This document shows positions 1 through 11,545 of a DNA stretch of 24,465 nucleotides, one piece after another. Source of the stretch: a virus. The notes beneath the pieces are model-generated. The model searched no databases and had not been told where the DNA came from. It saw only the letters and a program-made list of their open reading frames with translations. The position numbers were made by a program, and so were the translations under genes. The DNA lies in IMG/VR virus record IMGVR_UViG_3300010885_004277, positions 1 to 24,465 of that record; one strand, 5' to 3'. Each line of letters begins with the position of its first letter. Position 1 is the first letter of the stretch.

Positions 1-342
1 GAAAGCAAGAACCTTTATCTGACTTAGTGGTGTTAGAGGTTCTTTGGTCTTCTCTTCATCAACTAAAGAGATTAATCCCCACTCTACCAAGAGATTGATG
101 ATGGTATTTCTTCGACCTTCATCGTTCTCTGAAAAGTCTGTCGGCTTGCCGTCCAGTGCAAATAGTTCTTTGAAGTGTACGATGTAGTACTTCTTCTGCT
201 TGTGAAGAATGTGACACGACTGATAGAGAGTTTGATCTTTTTTAGAGGCTACACCGATACGTGTTAGAGTCTCTTTCACTTTCAAAAAGTCATCAGGCTC
301 TTTCAACTGTACTTCTACTAAAGAGTCTATAGAGAGTCTCAT
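1..342 (-). CDS. regA: RegA translational repressor (3' part cut by window edge)
   Basis: RegA is the T4-family RNA-binding protein that represses translation of early mRNAs, including its own and those of the clamp genes, by covering their start sites. The 114 visible residues begin MRLSIDSLVEVQLKEPDDFL and closely match T4 RegA: the stretches DFLKVKETLTR, LYQSCHILHKQ, YYIVHFKEL and WGLI are recognisable. The C-terminal end lies beyond base 1. The start ATG overlaps the gp62 stop (ATGA), so the gene is probably translated by coupling. Its position directly after gp44-gp62 is the classical T4 order, which would continue into DNA polymerase gp43 outside the window. Identification is by recalled family sequence and synteny. 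Confidence 0.96.
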   Translation of the reverse strand, partial: MRLSIDSLVEVQLKEPDDFLKVKETLTRIGVASKKDQTLYQSCHILHKQKKYYIVHFKELFALDGKPTDFSENDEGRRNTIINLLVEWGLISLVDEEKTKEPLTPLSQIKVLAF

Positions 343-827
343 TTCTTTAGTCCACCTTTTCTTGTTCTTTTTCTCAGTTCTTCTAGTTGTTCGGTGGACA
401 ACAATGATAGTGCTACTTCAGCCTTACGTTGAGAGTAACCATAGACTTCTTTCAGTACTTCAATGTCCCCACTCTTGTCTTTCTTCACCCACTGTGAAAA
501 CCTCTTCCTAGGTCTAACAATATTTATTAAATACCGATACTGTAGTACATTATCTAGTTGATAGTTTGTATTCATCTCATTTGCCTGAAGAACAGTATCT
601 TCAAAATAAGACAAAGCTTTATTGATCAACCAAGGGTTGTAGTTAGCTTCGGCAACTTTAGGATCATCTGCGGTCGAGATAAGATCCTTCTTGTTAGTAT
701 TTATACTGTTGACAAAATCAAACGGATTGATGTTCGCCACTGTATACTTAGCATCTTCGTCGATGTAATCTTTAGTTTCTTCTTTTGGCTTATCCTTACC
801 ACTGTAGAAATCAAATAGGTTATTCAT
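339..827 (-). CDS. 62: Sliding clamp loader small subunit gp62
   Basis: Gp62 is the single non-ATPase subunit that completes the gp44/62 clamp loader, which opens gp45 and places it on primed DNA. The product is 162 aa, against about 187 in T4. It has little obvious motif content, so the call rests mainly on position between gp44 and regA plus size; the segment YLINIVRPRKRFSQWVKK and the basic C-terminus (RKRTRKGGLKK) fit. Three ATG codons follow one another at 833, 830 and 827. GGAG at 837-834 abuts the first, so the third (827) has the best ribosome-binding spacing. The Shine-Dalgarno region overlaps the gp44 stop codon, and the gene end overlaps the regA start by four bases. Confidence 0.88.
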   Translation of the reverse strand: MNNLFDFYSGKDKPKEETKDYIDEDAKYTVANINPFDFVNSINTNKKDLISTADDPKVAEANYNPWLINKALSYFEDTVLQANEMNTNYQLDNVLQYRYLINIVRPRKRFSQWVKKDKSGDIEVLKEVYGYSQRKAEVALSLLSTEQLEELRKRTRKGGLKK

Positions 828-836
828 CATCATCTC

Positions 837-1781
837 CTACTTGAAGTCGCAATCAGCCATAACCTCTAACAGAAAGGCAATGGTATTGATCTCTTGGTCT
901 GCAACAAATGCAGCCTTGTACTGATAGTTAGCGATATGCATAACTAGCTGAGGAATAGAGTTATCCTCCATAAGTTCAGAGGCTTGATCAAAGATAGTAC
1001 GGAATAGTGTTGCACTATCAAGATCTGTAGACTCTCCTACCCACTTACGCATAGCCTTGAAGTCTTTGTTCTTTAGAGCTTCTGTAAGATTCTTGTAAGA
1101 ACCTTCAGACATGTTCTTTAGAATACCGACATCAATCTTACCGCCGATAGAATAACGCTGTAGCTCATTAAGAACTCGACGCCAATCAGGGAAGTACTTG
1201 GTGATAAGTTCACCAACAACTTCTTTATCAAAAGTAATGTTCTCAGTCTTAAGAATGCCAGTAACACGCTTCATAAATTGAAGAGCGAGTGCTGGCTTAT
1301 CCTTCTTATCAATCTTGAACTCTACGACAGAGCACCGAGAATGAAGAGGAGCGATAAGACGATTCTTAAAGTTACAGGTTAGAATGAATCCGCAGTTCTT
1401 TGAAAATTCTTCCATAAAGTTACGGAAGGCTGGCTGAACCTTATCTGCGGATAGATAGTCAGCCTCGTCGATGATAACGTACTTGCGACCACCCTTGAAA
1501 GAAACGGTAGATGCAAAGTTAGTAATGTCGTTACGCAGAACATCAATACCCGCATTAAGCGAACCATTGATGATGATATAATCACACTCTAGTTGTTCCA
1601 ACATTGCTCGGGCAACAGTTGTCTTACCAACACCTGGACCGCCTGTTAGAAGTAGGTTTGGAATATTCTTTTGATCAACAAATTGTTGAAAGACCCTCTT
1701 AAGACTATCGGGAAGAATGCACTCATCGATGGTCTTAGGACGATACTTTTCAACAAAGAGAAACTGTTCAACATCACTCAT
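837..1781 (-). CDS. 44: Sliding clamp loader ATPase subunit gp44 (AAA+)
   Basis: This is the ATPase subunit of the phage clamp loader, which uses ATP to load the gp45 clamp for the replicative polymerase and late transcription. The 314-aa product (T4: 319) has an N-terminal FVEKYRPKTIDE box, Walker A GGPGVGKTT at residues 47-55, Walker B VIIDEAD around 102-108, a sensor-1 like TCN at 135-137, and the clamp-loader signature SRC at 148-150 with the arginine finger. A C-terminal helical collar domain follows. The start is preceded by AGGA in an 84-base leader that also holds a terminator hairpin, so expression is probably separated from gp45. The leader is a plausible RegA target, as in T4, but no site can be assigned with certainty. 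Confidence 0.97.
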   Translation of the reverse strand: MSDVEQFLFVEKYRPKTIDECILPDSLKRVFQQFVDQKNIPNLLLTGGPGVGKTTVARAMLEQLECDYIIINGSLNAGIDVLRNDITNFASTVSFKGGRKYVIIDEADYLSADKVQPAFRNFMEEFSKNCGFILTCNFKNRLIAPLHSRCSVVEFKIDKKDKPALALQFMKRVTGILKTENITFDKEVVGELITKYFPDWRRVLNELQRYSIGGKIDVGILKNMSEGSYKNLTEALKNKDFKAMRKWVGESTDLDSATLFRTIFDQASELMEDNSIPQLVMHIANYQYKAAFVADQEINTIAFLLEVMADCDFK

Positions 1782-1865: not shown

Positions 1866-2525
1866 TTAATCTCCGAACTTTGAGCTAGCTTCAGTAGCTA
1901 CCCAATACGTTAACTTGCTGACATCAAACTTAGCGATGCCCTTAGAAGTGATTGACACGTCGTAGTCGTTCTGAATCATCTTCAGATTTTCACTACGGAA
2001 GATAGCATTGAACGTGCGATCAGTCTCGCCAACCTCAATACTGAATGCATCAGCGGTTGGATTCTTTGCGTCTACTGCCTTAAGATAGATGGTGCTACCG
2101 TCGCCAGTAACAGAAATTTCTGGTAGACCCATAACGTGACCAGCACGCTGAACCTTCAGAAAGTCTGCGCTCTTCATGTTGAACATAACTTCCGGAACTG
2201 GAAAGTTGATGTCCTTGTTTGGAGCAACGGTGATAGTCGCTGCATCAGCATAAGCATATACTAGCTTCTGCTTACCAGACTTGATCACCGCCGAAACATC
2301 ACCAAAGTCGACCTCTGGGTTCTCAAACAGAGAAAGTGCACCCAAGAACCGAGGAAGTTCAAAGATTGCGAAATCTTTTTCCATTGTTTCATCAATCTCA
2401 GCCTTGGCCATGATTGTCTTTTGAGGAGAAACTGTCCTCAGAGTATTACCCTGACGAAACAGAATGCCACCATTGATAGATGAGAAGTTCTTTAGAACTC
2501 CAAGAGTCTTTTCACTGAAAATCAT
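1866..2525 (-). CDS. 45: DNA polymerase sliding clamp gp45
   Basis: Gp45 is the trimeric ring that tethers the phage DNA polymerase to DNA and, in T4, also binds late sigma gp55 and co-activator gp33 to activate late promoters. The product is 219 aa (T4: 228). It has the clamp-like N-terminus MIFSEKTLGVLKNFSSING and alternating beta segments with many acidic residues. The call is supported by size, composition and its position directly before gp44-gp62-regA. The ribosome site AAGGAG lies about ten bases before the ATG. The clamp matters for the accessory block upstream, because two proteins there end in clamp-binding-like peptides. Confidence 0.95.
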   Translation of the reverse strand: MIFSEKTLGVLKNFSSINGGILFRQGNTLRTVSPQKTIMAKAEIDETMEKDFAIFELPRFLGALSLFENPEVDFGDVSAVIKSGKQKLVYAYADAATITVAPNKDINFPVPEVMFNMKSADFLKVQRAGHVMGLPEISVTGDGSTIYLKAVDAKNPTADAFSIEVGETDRTFNAIFRSENLKMIQNDYDVSITSKGIAKFDVSKLTYWVATEASSKFGD

Positions 2526-3791: not shown

Positions 3792-3820
3792 ACTCTAAAC
3801 TAATTTTACAATAAAGTCAA
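3792..3820 (-). promoter_or_regulatory. Possible sigma70-like promoter before the DUF3310 gene
   Basis: On the minus strand TTGACT (3820-3815) is followed after 17 bases by TAGAGT (3797-3792), only ten bases before the DUF3310 start. The -35 matches the TTGACT used at the clearer plus-strand promoters of this phage, and the -10 matches the consensus at four of six positions. The initiation point would fall inside or just before the start codon, which argues against it. Low confidence. Confidence 0.22.
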
Positions 3821-4325
3821 CAGCCTTCTTCTGTTCTTCCAAAGTATTATGCGGTAACTTTTCAAACAGAAACATAAGATCAAAGTTAGTCATGATGTTG
3901 GCAATCTTAGATTCCCGACCAGCTAGCCAAGTTTCGTTCTGATTGCTACCACGCTCGGCGTATCGTTCTTTACGAGTAGCCTTCTCTGTCTGAAGATAAA
4001 CAATCTTGGTATCATACTTCTCTGCGCAGTTCTCTAGAAAAGAAGCTGTAAACAGACGGTCGCCTTCGAATAGTACTACAGAATCTTCTGGTAGTGTAGC
4101 TAGAAACTTAATAGCTTCGGGCTGAACTGCCATGCTCATACGGTCAGTACCAGAGAACACTTCGCCTTCTTCGTACTTACCAAGAATATAGATATTATCC
4201 TTTTGAAGATAGGGTACTAACTTGACCTCATTATACTTAGGCTCAACCTCAAAAACTTCAATAAGCTTCTTCATCAATGTTGACTTACCAGAACCTGGTT
4301 CGCCGCCGATAGCAATCACTTTCAT
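3795..4325 (-). CDS. P-loop kinase, candidate hydroxymethyl-base kinase
   Basis: The product is a 176-aa single-domain P-loop NTPase: Walker A GEPGSGKST at 8-16, then YILGKYEEG near 46-54, GTDRMSMAVQP at 59-69, a Walker B-like strand VVLFEGDRLF at 83-92, and an arginine-rich lid region (TRKERYAERGSNQNETWLAGRE). The layout strand-GKY-GTDR-EGDR resembles small nucleotide kinases and, as far as I can recall, the phage 5-hydroxymethyldeoxyuridine DNA kinases that activate the hydroxymethyl group for substitution. The start is the ATG at 4325, which shares one base with the upstream stop (TGATG). Directly following the TET and helical-transferase genes, it could phosphorylate a hydroxymethyl base in DNA. 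An ordinary deoxynucleotide kinase is the main alternative. Confidence 0.7.
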   Translation of the reverse strand: MKVIAIGGEPGSGKSTLMKKLIEVFEVEPKYNEVKLVPYLQKDNIYILGKYEEGEVFSGTDRMSMAVQPEAIKFLATLPEDSVVLFEGDRLFTASFLENCAEKYDTKIVYLQTEKATRKERYAERGSNQNETWLAGRESKIANIMTNFDLMFLFEKLPHNTLEEQKKAVDFIVKLV

Positions 4326-5398
4326 CAAAAAAACCTTTCAATATTATTTTTCGACACCAAAGAGTTTTTATAGAACGGCATGTCTTTTAGAGGGACCCAC
4401 AATTGCTGCTCGTCATTGAAAAATGATTCGATCCTAGGGATTCTTCCGTGATCCTTCAAAGCATGAACCCAATCTTTACAATATGCTTCTTTTGAGTTAG
4501 AACTGTTATTCTCAAACAGCAAGCTGTGCGGAATAACCGCTTGCCTACCCTCGAGATACTTATCCCAAAGCCATTCGTACTCTGGCCAATCTTTTTTCAT
4601 AAGCATAGTTTCAGTGTGCTGTTCATCAATATAACAACCACCGTACCTAGAACCCTTATGCTGCCTCTTATAGTTACAGCAAGCAGTTTCTAAGGTGAAA
4701 AAATTAGCTCTGGGAAAAGTTTTGTCTGAAATATATTCTGCTGCGGTTCTTTCAAGCATTTCGCAGTCAGATTTTGAAATGGTGTCGCCGGTCAAATCGT
4801 CTCTGCCGATGCAAAATGCCCATCCAGACCTATGACTTTTACCCTCATCAAACTCCATAGTAGGAGCCATAATGGGGGCGTCAATGAATCTTTCCAAAGC
4901 TTCTGAAAAACACCAGTGACCCATACGCCCCCAGTGAAACCATTCAGTTTGGCATTTGTTTTTGAGCTTGGTGTAGTTTTTGAACTTATCGTCGCTATCA
5001 AAGCAAGAAGAAATAAAGTTACCCAGCGTTCCATACGGCTTAACACTGTCAGCCACCGACTGTAAAAATTTGTCAAATACAATTTTTCTATATTTGCAAT
5101 CTGGTGAGAATAGCAGCCTTTTCTTTTCTTTAAAGAAAAACTCTATTTGAGCTGAAGCATCACTAGTGAATACTGGAAACTTGTCTGCGAACATAGATTC
5201 ACAAGGACCTGCATAGGTCGCCCCGTGGAAAAGTGCCATAACACAGCGTTTTTCAAAAGAGAAATCCAAATCATCAGCAATCCACTTTTCTACAGCAATA
5301 TCCGGCGAACAGTCGTTCGTTAGACAATGAAATTCATAAAACTTATCAAACCCAGCTTGACGATGCTCTGGGTCGCGGTAATCTATATTTGTATCCAT
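4325..5398 (-). CDS. Helical hypermodification enzyme (pyrophosphorylase / amino acid:DNA transferase-like)
   Basis: The product is a 357-aa mostly helical protein. Conserved-looking blocks are WFHWGRMGHW (153-162), GKSHRSGWAFCIGRDDL (186-202), LETACCNYK (236-244) followed by an Arg-Tyr-Gly and CYID (to about 258), and WPEYEWLWDKYLEGR (271-285). Combinations of this kind occur in the families predicted and partly shown to replace an activated (pyro)phosphoryl group on a hydroxymethyl thymine with an amine or amino acid (alpha-glutamyl/putrescinyl thymine pyrophosphorylases and amino acid:DNA transferases). I cannot say which clade this belongs to. The gene is fused by TGATG overlaps to the TET gene before it and the P-loop kinase after it, matching a pathway order. 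The C-terminus KNNIERFF resembles a clamp-binding peptide. Confidence 0.68.
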   Translation of the reverse strand: MDTNIDYRDPEHRQAGFDKFYEFHCLTNDCSPDIAVEKWIADDLDFSFEKRCVMALFHGATYAGPCESMFADKFPVFTSDASAQIEFFFKEKKRLLFSPDCKYRKIVFDKFLQSVADSVKPYGTLGNFISSCFDSDDKFKNYTKLKNKCQTEWFHWGRMGHWCFSEALERFIDAPIMAPTMEFDEGKSHRSGWAFCIGRDDLTGDTISKSDCEMLERTAAEYISDKTFPRANFFTLETACCNYKRQHKGSRYGGCYIDEQHTETMLMKKDWPEYEWLWDKYLEGRQAVIPHSLLFENNSSNSKEAYCKDWVHALKDHGRIPRIESFFNDEQQLWVPLKDMPFYKNSLVSKNNIERFF

Positions 5399-6696
5399 CA
5401 AAAAAAGTCTTCCAAAGATGCGTTGACTTGCTTCTTATATGGGTTTTCGATGTTATGCGAATCAAGGTAATCAAACCATTCTTGATCGTCCCACATAGCA
5501 GGAGAAACACCATTCCAAAGCGGACGCCAATACTTATGGTTTGTATTGAAACGACGTTCGTCAACAAACTGCTTACGTAGCTGTTCGTACTCCCAACCTT
5601 TAGTCTCTAGCATATCTTCACGAAAGTAAGCTACGATGGTCATACGGTCAGGGTTCTCGCCCCCAAGAGGAGAGTTACCGTGAATGGCAGTATGATTGGC
5701 GACCAGAAGTAGATCTCCTGGCTCTAGCTTTACAGCAGTACGATACTCTGGAAGAATAAGTTCTGCACCCTCCCAGCCCTTACCTAGTGCGGATAGGTTT
5801 GAGAAGCCTGAAGCCAAGTCGCCAGCGTCCAAATGAGCAGCAGTTCTAAAGTTATGGTTAACAGTAAGAGTTGTAAATACAGTCTCATCGATGAGAAACC
5901 TTGAATCTAGCTTATCAGCGGCAGCACGTTGAGCCGCCCAACGAGTGGGAAGCAGTTCACGAAAACAATGGTTGAGTTTGTTTAGAAACGGAAAAGATTT
6001 GGCAAAATCTTCTGGATGCTTCTCGGTAAAGGCTGTTGCTCGACCATAAGGAATGCGGGGATATCGAGAGTAGTAGCCAGCAACACCAGACATAACAGTC
6101 TGAGCATAGTTAGTTACAGAGATATAGTTGTCCCGAACGTGGATAGCGGCATTACGCTGCTCTTCACGAGAGTAGTTACCAAGACCCTCAAGCCAACGAT
6201 CGAACCAACCATAGTACGGATCGTGATCTTCTTGAACCTTAGAACGCATCCAAACATAACCACGGGTATCTTCAGACTCCGACTTACCCGTAAACCTCTT
6301 CTTAATATCTTCAATAGTCTCTTCATCAAGACTATCGTGAGAACGAGTAAGATACTCTAGTACGGCAACCTGATATGGTGTTACCCACTCACGACCGCCA
6401 CGATTGGTGGAGGAAAGAATGTTACCACGAGGACCAGCAGCCATACCACGGTTCTGAGATTCAGTAGCAGCACCGATAAGACCTTCGTAGCATAGATCCT
6501 GTTCTTCTTTGGTAAACACTCCCTTACGAAACTTAACCAGACAGTTTTCTTCGTTCATCTTCCCGTCGATAGAGGGACCATAAACGTCGGTATCTTCTGT
6601 AATAAGAGTATCGTAATTCTCTTTGTCTACAAACTTACCAATTAGATGGTCAGAGTTATACTTCTTGTCTGCGTAGATAACCTTAACTTCACTCAT
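5398..6696 (-). CDS. TET/JBP-family 2-oxoglutarate/Fe(II) DNA dioxygenase
   Basis: TET/JBP enzymes hydroxylate the methyl group of 5-methylcytosine or thymine in DNA using iron and 2-oxoglutarate. The 432-aa product has the family core: TVNHNFRTAAHLDAGDL with iron ligands His288 and Asp290, then GFSNLSALGKGWEGAELILP, a GDLLLVANHTAIHGNSPL segment giving the distal iron ligand (His339), and RMTIVAYFRE with Arg351 for 2-oxoglutarate. The roughly 270-residue N-terminal part, ending in a tryptophan- and arginine-rich stretch, probably supports DNA binding. The C-terminus NASLEDFF looks like a sliding-clamp-binding peptide. GAGGTGAAAG precedes the ATG, and a CATAAATA late-type promoter lies 38 bases upstream. 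All key residues are present. Whether the substrate is methylcytosine or thymine cannot be read from the sequence. Confidence 0.92.
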   Translation of the reverse strand: MSEVKVIYADKKYNSDHLIGKFVDKENYDTLITEDTDVYGPSIDGKMNEENCLVKFRKGVFTKEEQDLCYEGLIGAATESQNRGMAAGPRGNILSSTNRGGREWVTPYQVAVLEYLTRSHDSLDEETIEDIKKRFTGKSESEDTRGYVWMRSKVQEDHDPYYGWFDRWLEGLGNYSREEQRNAAIHVRDNYISVTNYAQTVMSGVAGYYSRYPRIPYGRATAFTEKHPEDFAKSFPFLNKLNHCFRELLPTRWAAQRAAADKLDSRFLIDETVFTTLTVNHNFRTAAHLDAGDLASGFSNLSALGKGWEGAELILPEYRTAVKLEPGDLLLVANHTAIHGNSPLGGENPDRMTIVAYFREDMLETKGWEYEQLRKQFVDERRFNTNHKYWRPLWNGVSPAMWDDQEWFDYLDSHNIENPYKKQVNASLEDFF

Positions 6697-10807: not shown

Positions 10808-11007
10808 GCTGACTTCTTTTTCTTTACATTTCTATTAGCTTCTTCTTTGATAGCTTGAGCATCGAACTTTTCGATAACATCATTACAAAAGTTTCGAACA
10901 TTCATAAGACTACCACGATAGTTTTCTCTAATATAGATGTTAAGCTTCTTATCAAAAAGATTTCTAGCCCAATCTAGGATTAGAGCAGGTATTACATTCT
11001 CATTCAT
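10804..11007 (-). CDS. Small conserved-position protein between gp55 and gp47
   Basis: I do not recognise this 67-aa protein. It begins MNENVIPALILDWARNLF, looks helical, and ends in a strongly basic tail (NRNVKKKKSA), which could contact nucleic acid. It has no cysteine pair, P-loop or membrane segment. It overlaps the gp55 stop by eight bases and the gp47 start by four, so it is clearly translated as part of the gp55-gp47-gp46 run. It has no resemblance that I can see to late co-activator gp33, which would be the tempting guess beside gp55. Confidence 0.75.
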   Translation of the reverse strand: MNENVIPALILDWARNLFDKKLNIYIRENYRGSLMNVRNFCNDVIEKFDAQAIKEEANRNVKKKKSA

Positions 11008-11545
11008 TACTGTCCCCTTCTACAAAAATATCAAGACCTATCTTCTTAGGTGGTTTCTTTATCTTAAGCTTCTTCTCATATTCACGAACGAAATCATTCA
11101 TGTTATCATTAAAGCTTACGTTGACCGAGATAGGATCGTCGCTATTAGACTGAGTGCTTAGCTCGTCCATAACGCTTGAGTGTTCGAACGACTTATACTT
11201 AATGTACGTTTGTTTCTTTTCTTTTTGTATCCGAAGGACAAAGGCATTCCAAATAATCTTTGTGAAGTATGCGAATGGGTTCTGATATCTATCGGGATCG
11301 AAATTGTTTATGTAGTTAACGCAATTCTCGATACCATCAGAAACCATTTCTTCTCTATAAGAGTAATTGATAAAGTTGCCTTTTAGAGAGAGCTTATTTG
11401 CGATGTGAAAAATACACTCGCCGATATAGTTTGGAATCTGAGGTAGAGGCTTCTCTTGTTCTACTGCCTCTTTGTATATCTTCTTATACTCCACCATAGC
11501 CTGATATAGTGTTTTGTTATTTACGTAATGGTTACTCTTTTTCAT
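11000..11545 (-). CDS. 55: Late transcription sigma factor gp55
   Basis: Gp55 directs host RNA polymerase to phage late promoters and needs the gp45 clamp for activation. The 181-aa product (T4: 185) matches the T4 protein through YVNNKTLYQAM, YREEMVSDGIE, NFDPDRYQNPFAYFTKI and WNAFVLRIQKEKK. These are the sigma region 2-like core-binding and -10-reading parts; there is no region 4, as in T4. The C-terminal GLDIFVEG corresponds to the T4 clamp-binding tail SLDFLYE. GAGG lies about seven bases before the ATG. The TATAAATA-type elements before the head and tail genes in this window are its expected targets. Confidence 0.95.
   Translation of the reverse strand: MKKSNHYVNNKTLYQAMVEYKKIYKEAVEQEKPLPQIPNYIGECIFHIANKLSLKGNFINYSYREEMVSDGIENCVNYINNFDPDRYQNPFAYFTKIIWNAFVLRIQKEKKQTYIKYKSFEHSSVMDELSTQSNSDDPISVNVSFNDNMNDFVREYEKKLKIKKPPKKIGLDIFVEGDSNE

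Follow-up and report, generated by a model that had tools for sequence, protein, structure and literature searches.

Putative sliding-clamp-binding tails on the TET dioxygenase and the neighbouring ADDT of a T4-like phage

Two adjacent DNA-modifying enzymes of a T4-like phage, a TET/JBP dioxygenase and the amino acid:DNA transferase ADDT, end in short peptides, NASLEDFF and KNNIERFF, respectively. Very probably, the first of these, and probably also the second, are clamp-binding peptides of the type found on the phage polymerase gp43, carried on flexible tails that would dock both enzymes on the gp45 sliding clamp and thereby couple DNA hypermodification to replication. The evidence comes from sequence and is of five kinds: identity of the tail with those of polymerases, its conservation, its co-occurrence with gp45, its covariation with the replicase, and its presence on unrelated modifying enzymes. 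Binding to gp45, timing at the replication fork, and a substrate that is probably thymine are inferred.

The modification cassette and the TET tail

The window analysed here is the whole 24,465-base virus record. On its minus strand lie, in order, genes for a peptide deformylase, TET/JBP, ADDT, P-loop kinase 3, a DUF3310 protein, a glycosyltransferase-like protein (phrog_1574), gp45, gp44, and gp62. The features relevant to this work are the following:

339 to 833, minus strand: gp62, clamp loader small subunit (phrog_225, E 5.7e-40)
837 to 1781, minus strand: gp44, clamp loader ATPase (phrog_168, E 1.9e-116)
1866 to 2525, minus strand: gp45 sliding clamp, the presumed partner (gp45-slide_C PF09116, E 2.6e-18; phrog_223, E 4e-70)
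3795 to 4325, minus strand: P-loop nucleotide kinase 3, likely a DNA hydroxymethylpyrimidine kinase (PF18751, E 2.1e-14)
4325 to 5398, minus strand: ADDT, amino acid:DNA transferase (aGPT-PPlase2-like), 357 aa (PF18724, E 1.9e-15; phrog_3271)
4328 to 4351, minus strand: ADDT C-terminal clamp-binding-like peptide KNNIERFF, a weaker match (p = 0.008 or 2.4e-5, depending on the model; homologue tails)
5398 to 6696, minus strand: TET/JBP 2-oxoglutarate/Fe(II) DNA base dioxygenase, 432 aa (Tet_JBP PF12851, E 2.7e-21; phrog_24024)
5401 to 5424, minus strand: TET C-terminal sliding-clamp-binding-like peptide NASLEDFF (core identical to that of gp43 tails, 22.6 bits, kept in homologues)
5416 to 5457, minus strand: variable linker (residues 414-427) that joins the folded part of TET to its terminal peptide (modelled as coil by AF2, low conservation at 421-426)
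11000 to 11545, minus strand: gp55, late sigma factor (phrog_234, E 1.3e-60)

Both peptides lie exactly where the original prediction had placed them: the TET protein ends ...KKQVNASLEDFF, with its stop codon at 5398-5400, and ADDT ends ...LVSKNNIERFF, with its stop codon at 4325-4327. The clamp gene, stated to lie in the same window, is indeed there, together with both clamp loader genes, and a comparison of its product with the PDB retrieves the clamps of T4 and RB69 (E about 1e-23). The TET protein has the PF12851 domain, with an HxD...H motif and a 2-oxoglutarate-binding Arg (H288, D290, H339, and R351, invariant in 23 homologues), and the neighbour, at first described only as a helical enzyme, which was correct in outline, matches PF18724 with 57.7 bits against a cut-off of 26.2, over profile positions 74-229 of 232. 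Some public annotations of these genes are misleading: the PHROG hit by the window kinase bears the name terminase small subunit, and phage TET genes are labelled 'SNF2 DNA repair protein' in records KU682439, KF301602, and MG450654.

The two endings had been likened to PCNA-type peptides. The L-x-x-F-F spacing stands, but the Q of the PIP box does not, there being none three residues before the L or I, so that the pattern Qxx[ILM]xx[FY][FY] is matched by neither the window TET nor ADDT (N-A-S-L and N-N-I); neither contains the bacterial beta-clamp motif (QxxLF or QL[SD]LF). The comparison with phage polymerases fared better. The RB69 peptide, given as KASLFDMF, was nearly right, RB69 gp43 actually ending KKASLFDMFDF, and the T4 gp43 tail, KASLDFLFG, is closer to that of TET than is the RB69 one. 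The RB69 gp43 peptide has been co-crystallised with gp45.

A loose expression, [LIVM]xx[FL][FLMYW] close to the C-terminus, yielded an enrichment of no more than about twofold, too little to be of use; a polymerase-trained PSSM was therefore preferred. The gp43 C-termini of related phages, gathered by two independent queries (154 complete), almost all end in [AS][ST]LEDFF, LEDWF, or close variants, mostly followed by one further residue. The PSSM was built from the cores of these tails together with T4 and RB69 gp43 and T4 gp55, TET proteins being left out. The TET tail scores 22.6 bits, a value reached by none of 82,822 internal peptides from six related genomes (p about 1e-5), which rules out a chance origin. 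Among the 25 window proteins tested, TET has the top-scoring C-terminus and ADDT the second, followed by background. As the window is a fragment and carries no polymerase of its own, the within-phage comparison was made on relatives: polymerases of TET-encoding phages end TLEDFFG, TLEDFFS, TLESFFDD, SLEELFG, or TLDSFFA, the last being that of DLP_6.

Lack of conservation of the C-terminus among homologues had been set beforehand as a refuting outcome. The test did not refute the idea: of the 98 distinct TET C-termini collected, 67 carry the tail. Homologues that are 76 to 44% identical, from 30 viral contigs and phages DLP_6 and C48C1, keep it in forms such as SLEDFF, TLEGFFS, SLDAFF, TLENFFE, SLQDFFN, TLGDFFV, and SLEEFFV; when aligned, they show 96-100% conservation at L428, F431, and F432 but little at residues 421-426.

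The tail is conserved where the clamp is present and absent where it is not, with a single exception. Where gp45 shares the locus, 28 of 29 TET proteins carry the tail; of the 31 untagged ones, 30 have no gp45 on theirs. Most loci are fragments, for which absence of gp45 alone is weak evidence, and this part of the argument is consequently carried by complete records: S-CBWM1, HTVC112P, and P12024L have no gp45 match in theirs, and none of the three TET proteins has the tail, nor do 35 close relatives of the HTVC112P protein. Caulobacter phage Cr30 is that exception, and no other gp45 carrier seen shares it: its TET (L033:5998-7326) is tailless and ends ...GATLF; its TAGT-like protein ends SDLSKLF, resembling the tail of its own polymerase, ADLSSLFD.

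Clamp-like peptides on unrelated DNA-modifying enzymes

In six whole TET phages, a strict form of the C-terminal motif fits 10 of 1,349 ORF C-termini, against 0.2 expected, and the ten proteins are DNA polymerase (3), TET (5), TAGT (1), and a D12-class Dam methyltransferase (1). The wider contig set extends this list. TAGT proteins (PF20691) end TLEDFFN, TLDNFFD, SLESFFE, and the like, and all 19 with gp45 on their locus are tagged. NTLDNFF is the ending of a methyltransferase-like protein. Among 76 Dam homologues the tag is nearly universal, most ending STLEDFFG, STLDAFFG, or similar; Dam-type methyltransferases of T4-like phages with such tails were noted at L322-L401. These folds are mutually unrelated, and what they have in common is that they work on DNA. 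In C48C1, the gene of the Dam-type methyltransferase (L078:14980-15864) adjoins gp43.

Other proteins of the clamp's circle were also inspected. The gp33 of TET phages has the full motif only in DLP_6, the others ending in a reduced ..TLPV, and the window gp55 carries GLDIFVEGD near its C-terminus, where the clamp epitope is known to lie, a site at which homologues keep G[VIL]E.F. Within the window cassette, the kinase ends DFIVKLV and has no clamp tail (p = 0.68 under the wider tail model described below), and the other glycosyltransferase-like gene has none either. The T4 baseplate hub protein (PF12322; L074:6167-6868 and homologues) ends xxFF in several phages, probably for structural reasons; because of this similar ending, the motif alone is no proof of clamp binding.

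In the Ackermannviridae (L479-L485 and L486-L488), the tail of the polymerase, which exists in two forms, NLLxMM and RKLW, recurs on ADDT and on both 5-hmdU DNA kinases of the same phage. In Det7, the polymerase ends VNLLSMMGKKG, ADDT VNLMTLLKR, the HMUD2 kinase VSLLGLLSKG, and the HMUDK_hel kinase KNLLNLFKK; the motif fits 5 of 239 C-termini and no internal site. Serratia phage phiMAM1 and Dickeya phage RC-2014 show a Det7-like pattern in polymerase, ADDT, and HMUD2. In Vibrio phage D533, the corresponding endings are ARKLW (polymerase), TRKLW (ADDT), TKKLW (HMUD2), and TKRLW (HMUDK_hel), and TRKLF is found on the late-transcription coactivator gp33, whose family is known to bind the clamp in T4. 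Between Det7 and D533 the peptide changes completely, and the enzymes change with the polymerase of their own phage. Two small proteins of these phages are candidates for acting at the clamp: one of D533 (L487:5591-5890), which ends TKRLW and adjoins DNA ligase, and Det7 gp120 (L480:34862-35071), which ends KINLLNMMRK.

Yet another type of ending is seen in TET/TAGT phages without a detected gp45. The bacterial beta-clamp motif takes the forms QL[SD]LF and QxxLF, and TAGT proteins of such phages end QETLFS, QQTQLF, QAKLF, or QIKLF, or QLEIF in P12024L, where a DNA methyltransferase neighbouring TAGT ends QQTLF. These endings on TAGT proteins and one DNA methyltransferase were noted at L463-L470, L473, and L056:3607-5002. 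In P12024L, no polymerase B, gp45, or beta clamp of the phage's own was matched, making the ring of the host the likely target. Among the 1,349 C-termini of the T4-like genomes, none has a QxxLF-type ending. It is likely, as a general rule, that phage enzymes acting on bases of already synthesised DNA (TET, TAGT, ADDT, 5-hmdU DNA kinases, and Dam) carry the clamp peptide of their own replicase and that this peptide is swapped together with the replicase, be it SLEDFF, VNLLSMM, RKLW, or the QxxLF of the host beta clamp.

Docking on gp45 and alternative readings

The tethering of DNA modifiers by a clamp is already known from two systems. T4 alpha-glucosyltransferase co-purifies with gp45, whereas beta-glucosyltransferase does not (PMC13216743, confirming Sommer et al., 2004), and eukaryotic DNA methyltransferase DNMT1 is tethered to PCNA by a PIP box (PMC9690074). 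The first, like the enzymes described here as predicted, is a phage DNA-modifying enzyme contacting the phage clamp, but it belongs to another family and ends FCFKEQFDIITK, with no such C-terminal peptide. The PIP box of DNMT1 contains Q. The window enzymes would resemble DNMT1 in being base modifiers tethered by a replication clamp to new DNA, and differ from it in lacking a PIP box with Q, in the clamp family, and in hypermodification taking the place of maintenance methylation. The peptides themselves have a close counterpart in T4 gp43, gp55, and gp33, whose C-termini are interchangeable gp45 ligands (PMC2988020). Tails of this type share with that of TET the C-terminal position, a hydrophobic and acidic consensus, a divergent linker, and the residues (SLEDFF against ASLDFLF and ATLEDFF); what differs is that the peptide is here predicted from sequence and sits on DNA base-modifying enzymes. 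Since these T4 tails bind gp45, and given the alpha-glucosyltransferase precedent, binding of TET and ADDT to gp45 is likely.

The families and neighbourhoods encountered here (PF12851, PF20691, PF18724, PF18747, and PF18723) are those of known phage TET/TAGT and thymidine hypermodification cassettes. The statement that no clamp tail had been reported for a phage TET holds within the searchable open literature, T4 alpha-glucosyltransferase being the precedent; the same search returned no report of such tails on TAGT, ADDT, 5-hmdU kinases, or phage Dam, or of covariation of modifier tails with the polymerase tail. Clamp tethering as such is known, and the tails and their covariation would be a new and seemingly widespread form of it.

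In the proposed mechanism, TET would dock via NASLEDFF on a gp45 ring left on, or moving with, newly made DNA and hydroxylate bases of that DNA. ADDT would dock on the same ring and act on the kinase-activated product, both enzymes using the same gp45 pocket and working on DNA threaded through the ring. Tethering would raise the local concentration of the enzymes on phage DNA and couple hypermodification to replication.

The tails may also bind gp45 for other ends, such as the scanning by orphan clamps of DNA already copied, a link to late transcription, or control of polymerase exchange, which we regard as rather unlikely. In T4, gp45 rings that remain on DNA have a role in late transcription as well (PMC2988020), and the contact of alpha-glucosyltransferase with gp45 is not the main determinant of the T4 glucosylation level (PMC13216743). 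The tagged enzymes, however, share DNA-base modification and not transcription, which makes coupling to DNA synthesis the simplest reading.

That TET alone is tethered, and that the ADDT ending is due to chance or is vestigial, is rather unlikely. Taken by itself, KNNIERFF is a marginal match to the polymerase-tail model (2.7 bits, p = 0.008), because it has R where polymerases have D, and one close homologue, the L050 ADDT, has no such tail. Under a wider model, made from TET, TAGT, Dam, and polymerase tails with ADDT left out, the score nevertheless rises to 11.8 bits (p = 2.4e-5), and a basic residue inside the motif is also found in tagged TET and TAGT proteins (STLERFFS and NSLEKFFG). Most close ADDT homologues keep a tail (SLSKFF, SISKFFE, SLTKFFE, SLTRFLN, SFEDFV, and NLESFF) while the length of the linker varies, GLEEFFE, SSLDDFF, and NTLEKFFE are the endings of more remote ADDT-like proteins from other TET phages, and the ADDTs of Ackermannviridae carry the tail form of their own polymerase. 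The AF2 model of ADDT is poor (mean pLDDT 58) and uninformative on its tail. The window ADDT thus probably ends in a clamp-binding-like peptide.

It is highly improbable that the tails are structural, packing on their own enzyme or making oligomer contacts as C-terminal elements of the fold. Hydrophobic C-terminal residues can belong to a fold, and the baseplate hub family mentioned above offers an xxFF example, but the same peptide is found after variable linkers on folds as unrelated as dioxygenase, glycosyltransferase, ADDT, Dam, and polymerase, and TET homologues of phages without gp45 keep the domain and lack the tail. In the AF2 model of TET, moreover, the last long helix stops at residue 413, residues 414-427 are coil, and 428-431 form a short low-confidence helix, with a pLDDT of 52-55 at the end; alignment and model thus agree in placing the peptide at the very C-terminus, after a divergent flexible linker.

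Finally, both window genes end exactly in TTTTTTTGATG, yet the idea that FF arises as a side effect of this DNA context at a stop/start overlap (translational coupling) can be dismissed, as homologues keep the peptide while varying codons (TTT or TTC for F, five codons for L, both families for S), stops (TGA or TAA), the residue after FF, and the start overlaps. This variation refutes a cause at the DNA level, and, because it is synonymous, the conserved unit is the peptide, at the protein level. Clamp tethering, very probably of TET and probably of ADDT, is the interpretation that the sequences support.

Substrate and implications for phage biology

No C5-cytosine methyltransferase (PF00145) was matched in six phages with a long TET (G001, G002, G003, DLP_6, C48C1, and Cr30), and TET may for this reason act on thymine and not on 5-methylcytosine. 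In five of the six, a thymidylate-synthase-type hydroxymethylase (PF00303) was not matched either. With a kinase and ADDT in the window cassette, TET more likely acts on thymine in DNA. In Melnitz phages, an HhaI-like methyltransferase adjoins a shorter TET, and these phages are probably of the 5-methylcytosine type.

Tethering of this kind would explain how a phage that modifies finished DNA, and not nucleotides, could act fast and prefer its own DNA over that of the host: its modifying enzymes would travel on the replication clamp that the phage itself supplies. Modification would then be expected to race against restriction at the fork. If the covariation seen here has this meaning, hypermodification would be clamp-tethered and replication-coupled in T4-like phages, in Ackermannviridae, and in certain small phages that rely on the replisome of the host. 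A C-terminus that matches that of the phage's own polymerase may, in addition, serve to pick out phage proteins that act on DNA and are as yet unrecognised.
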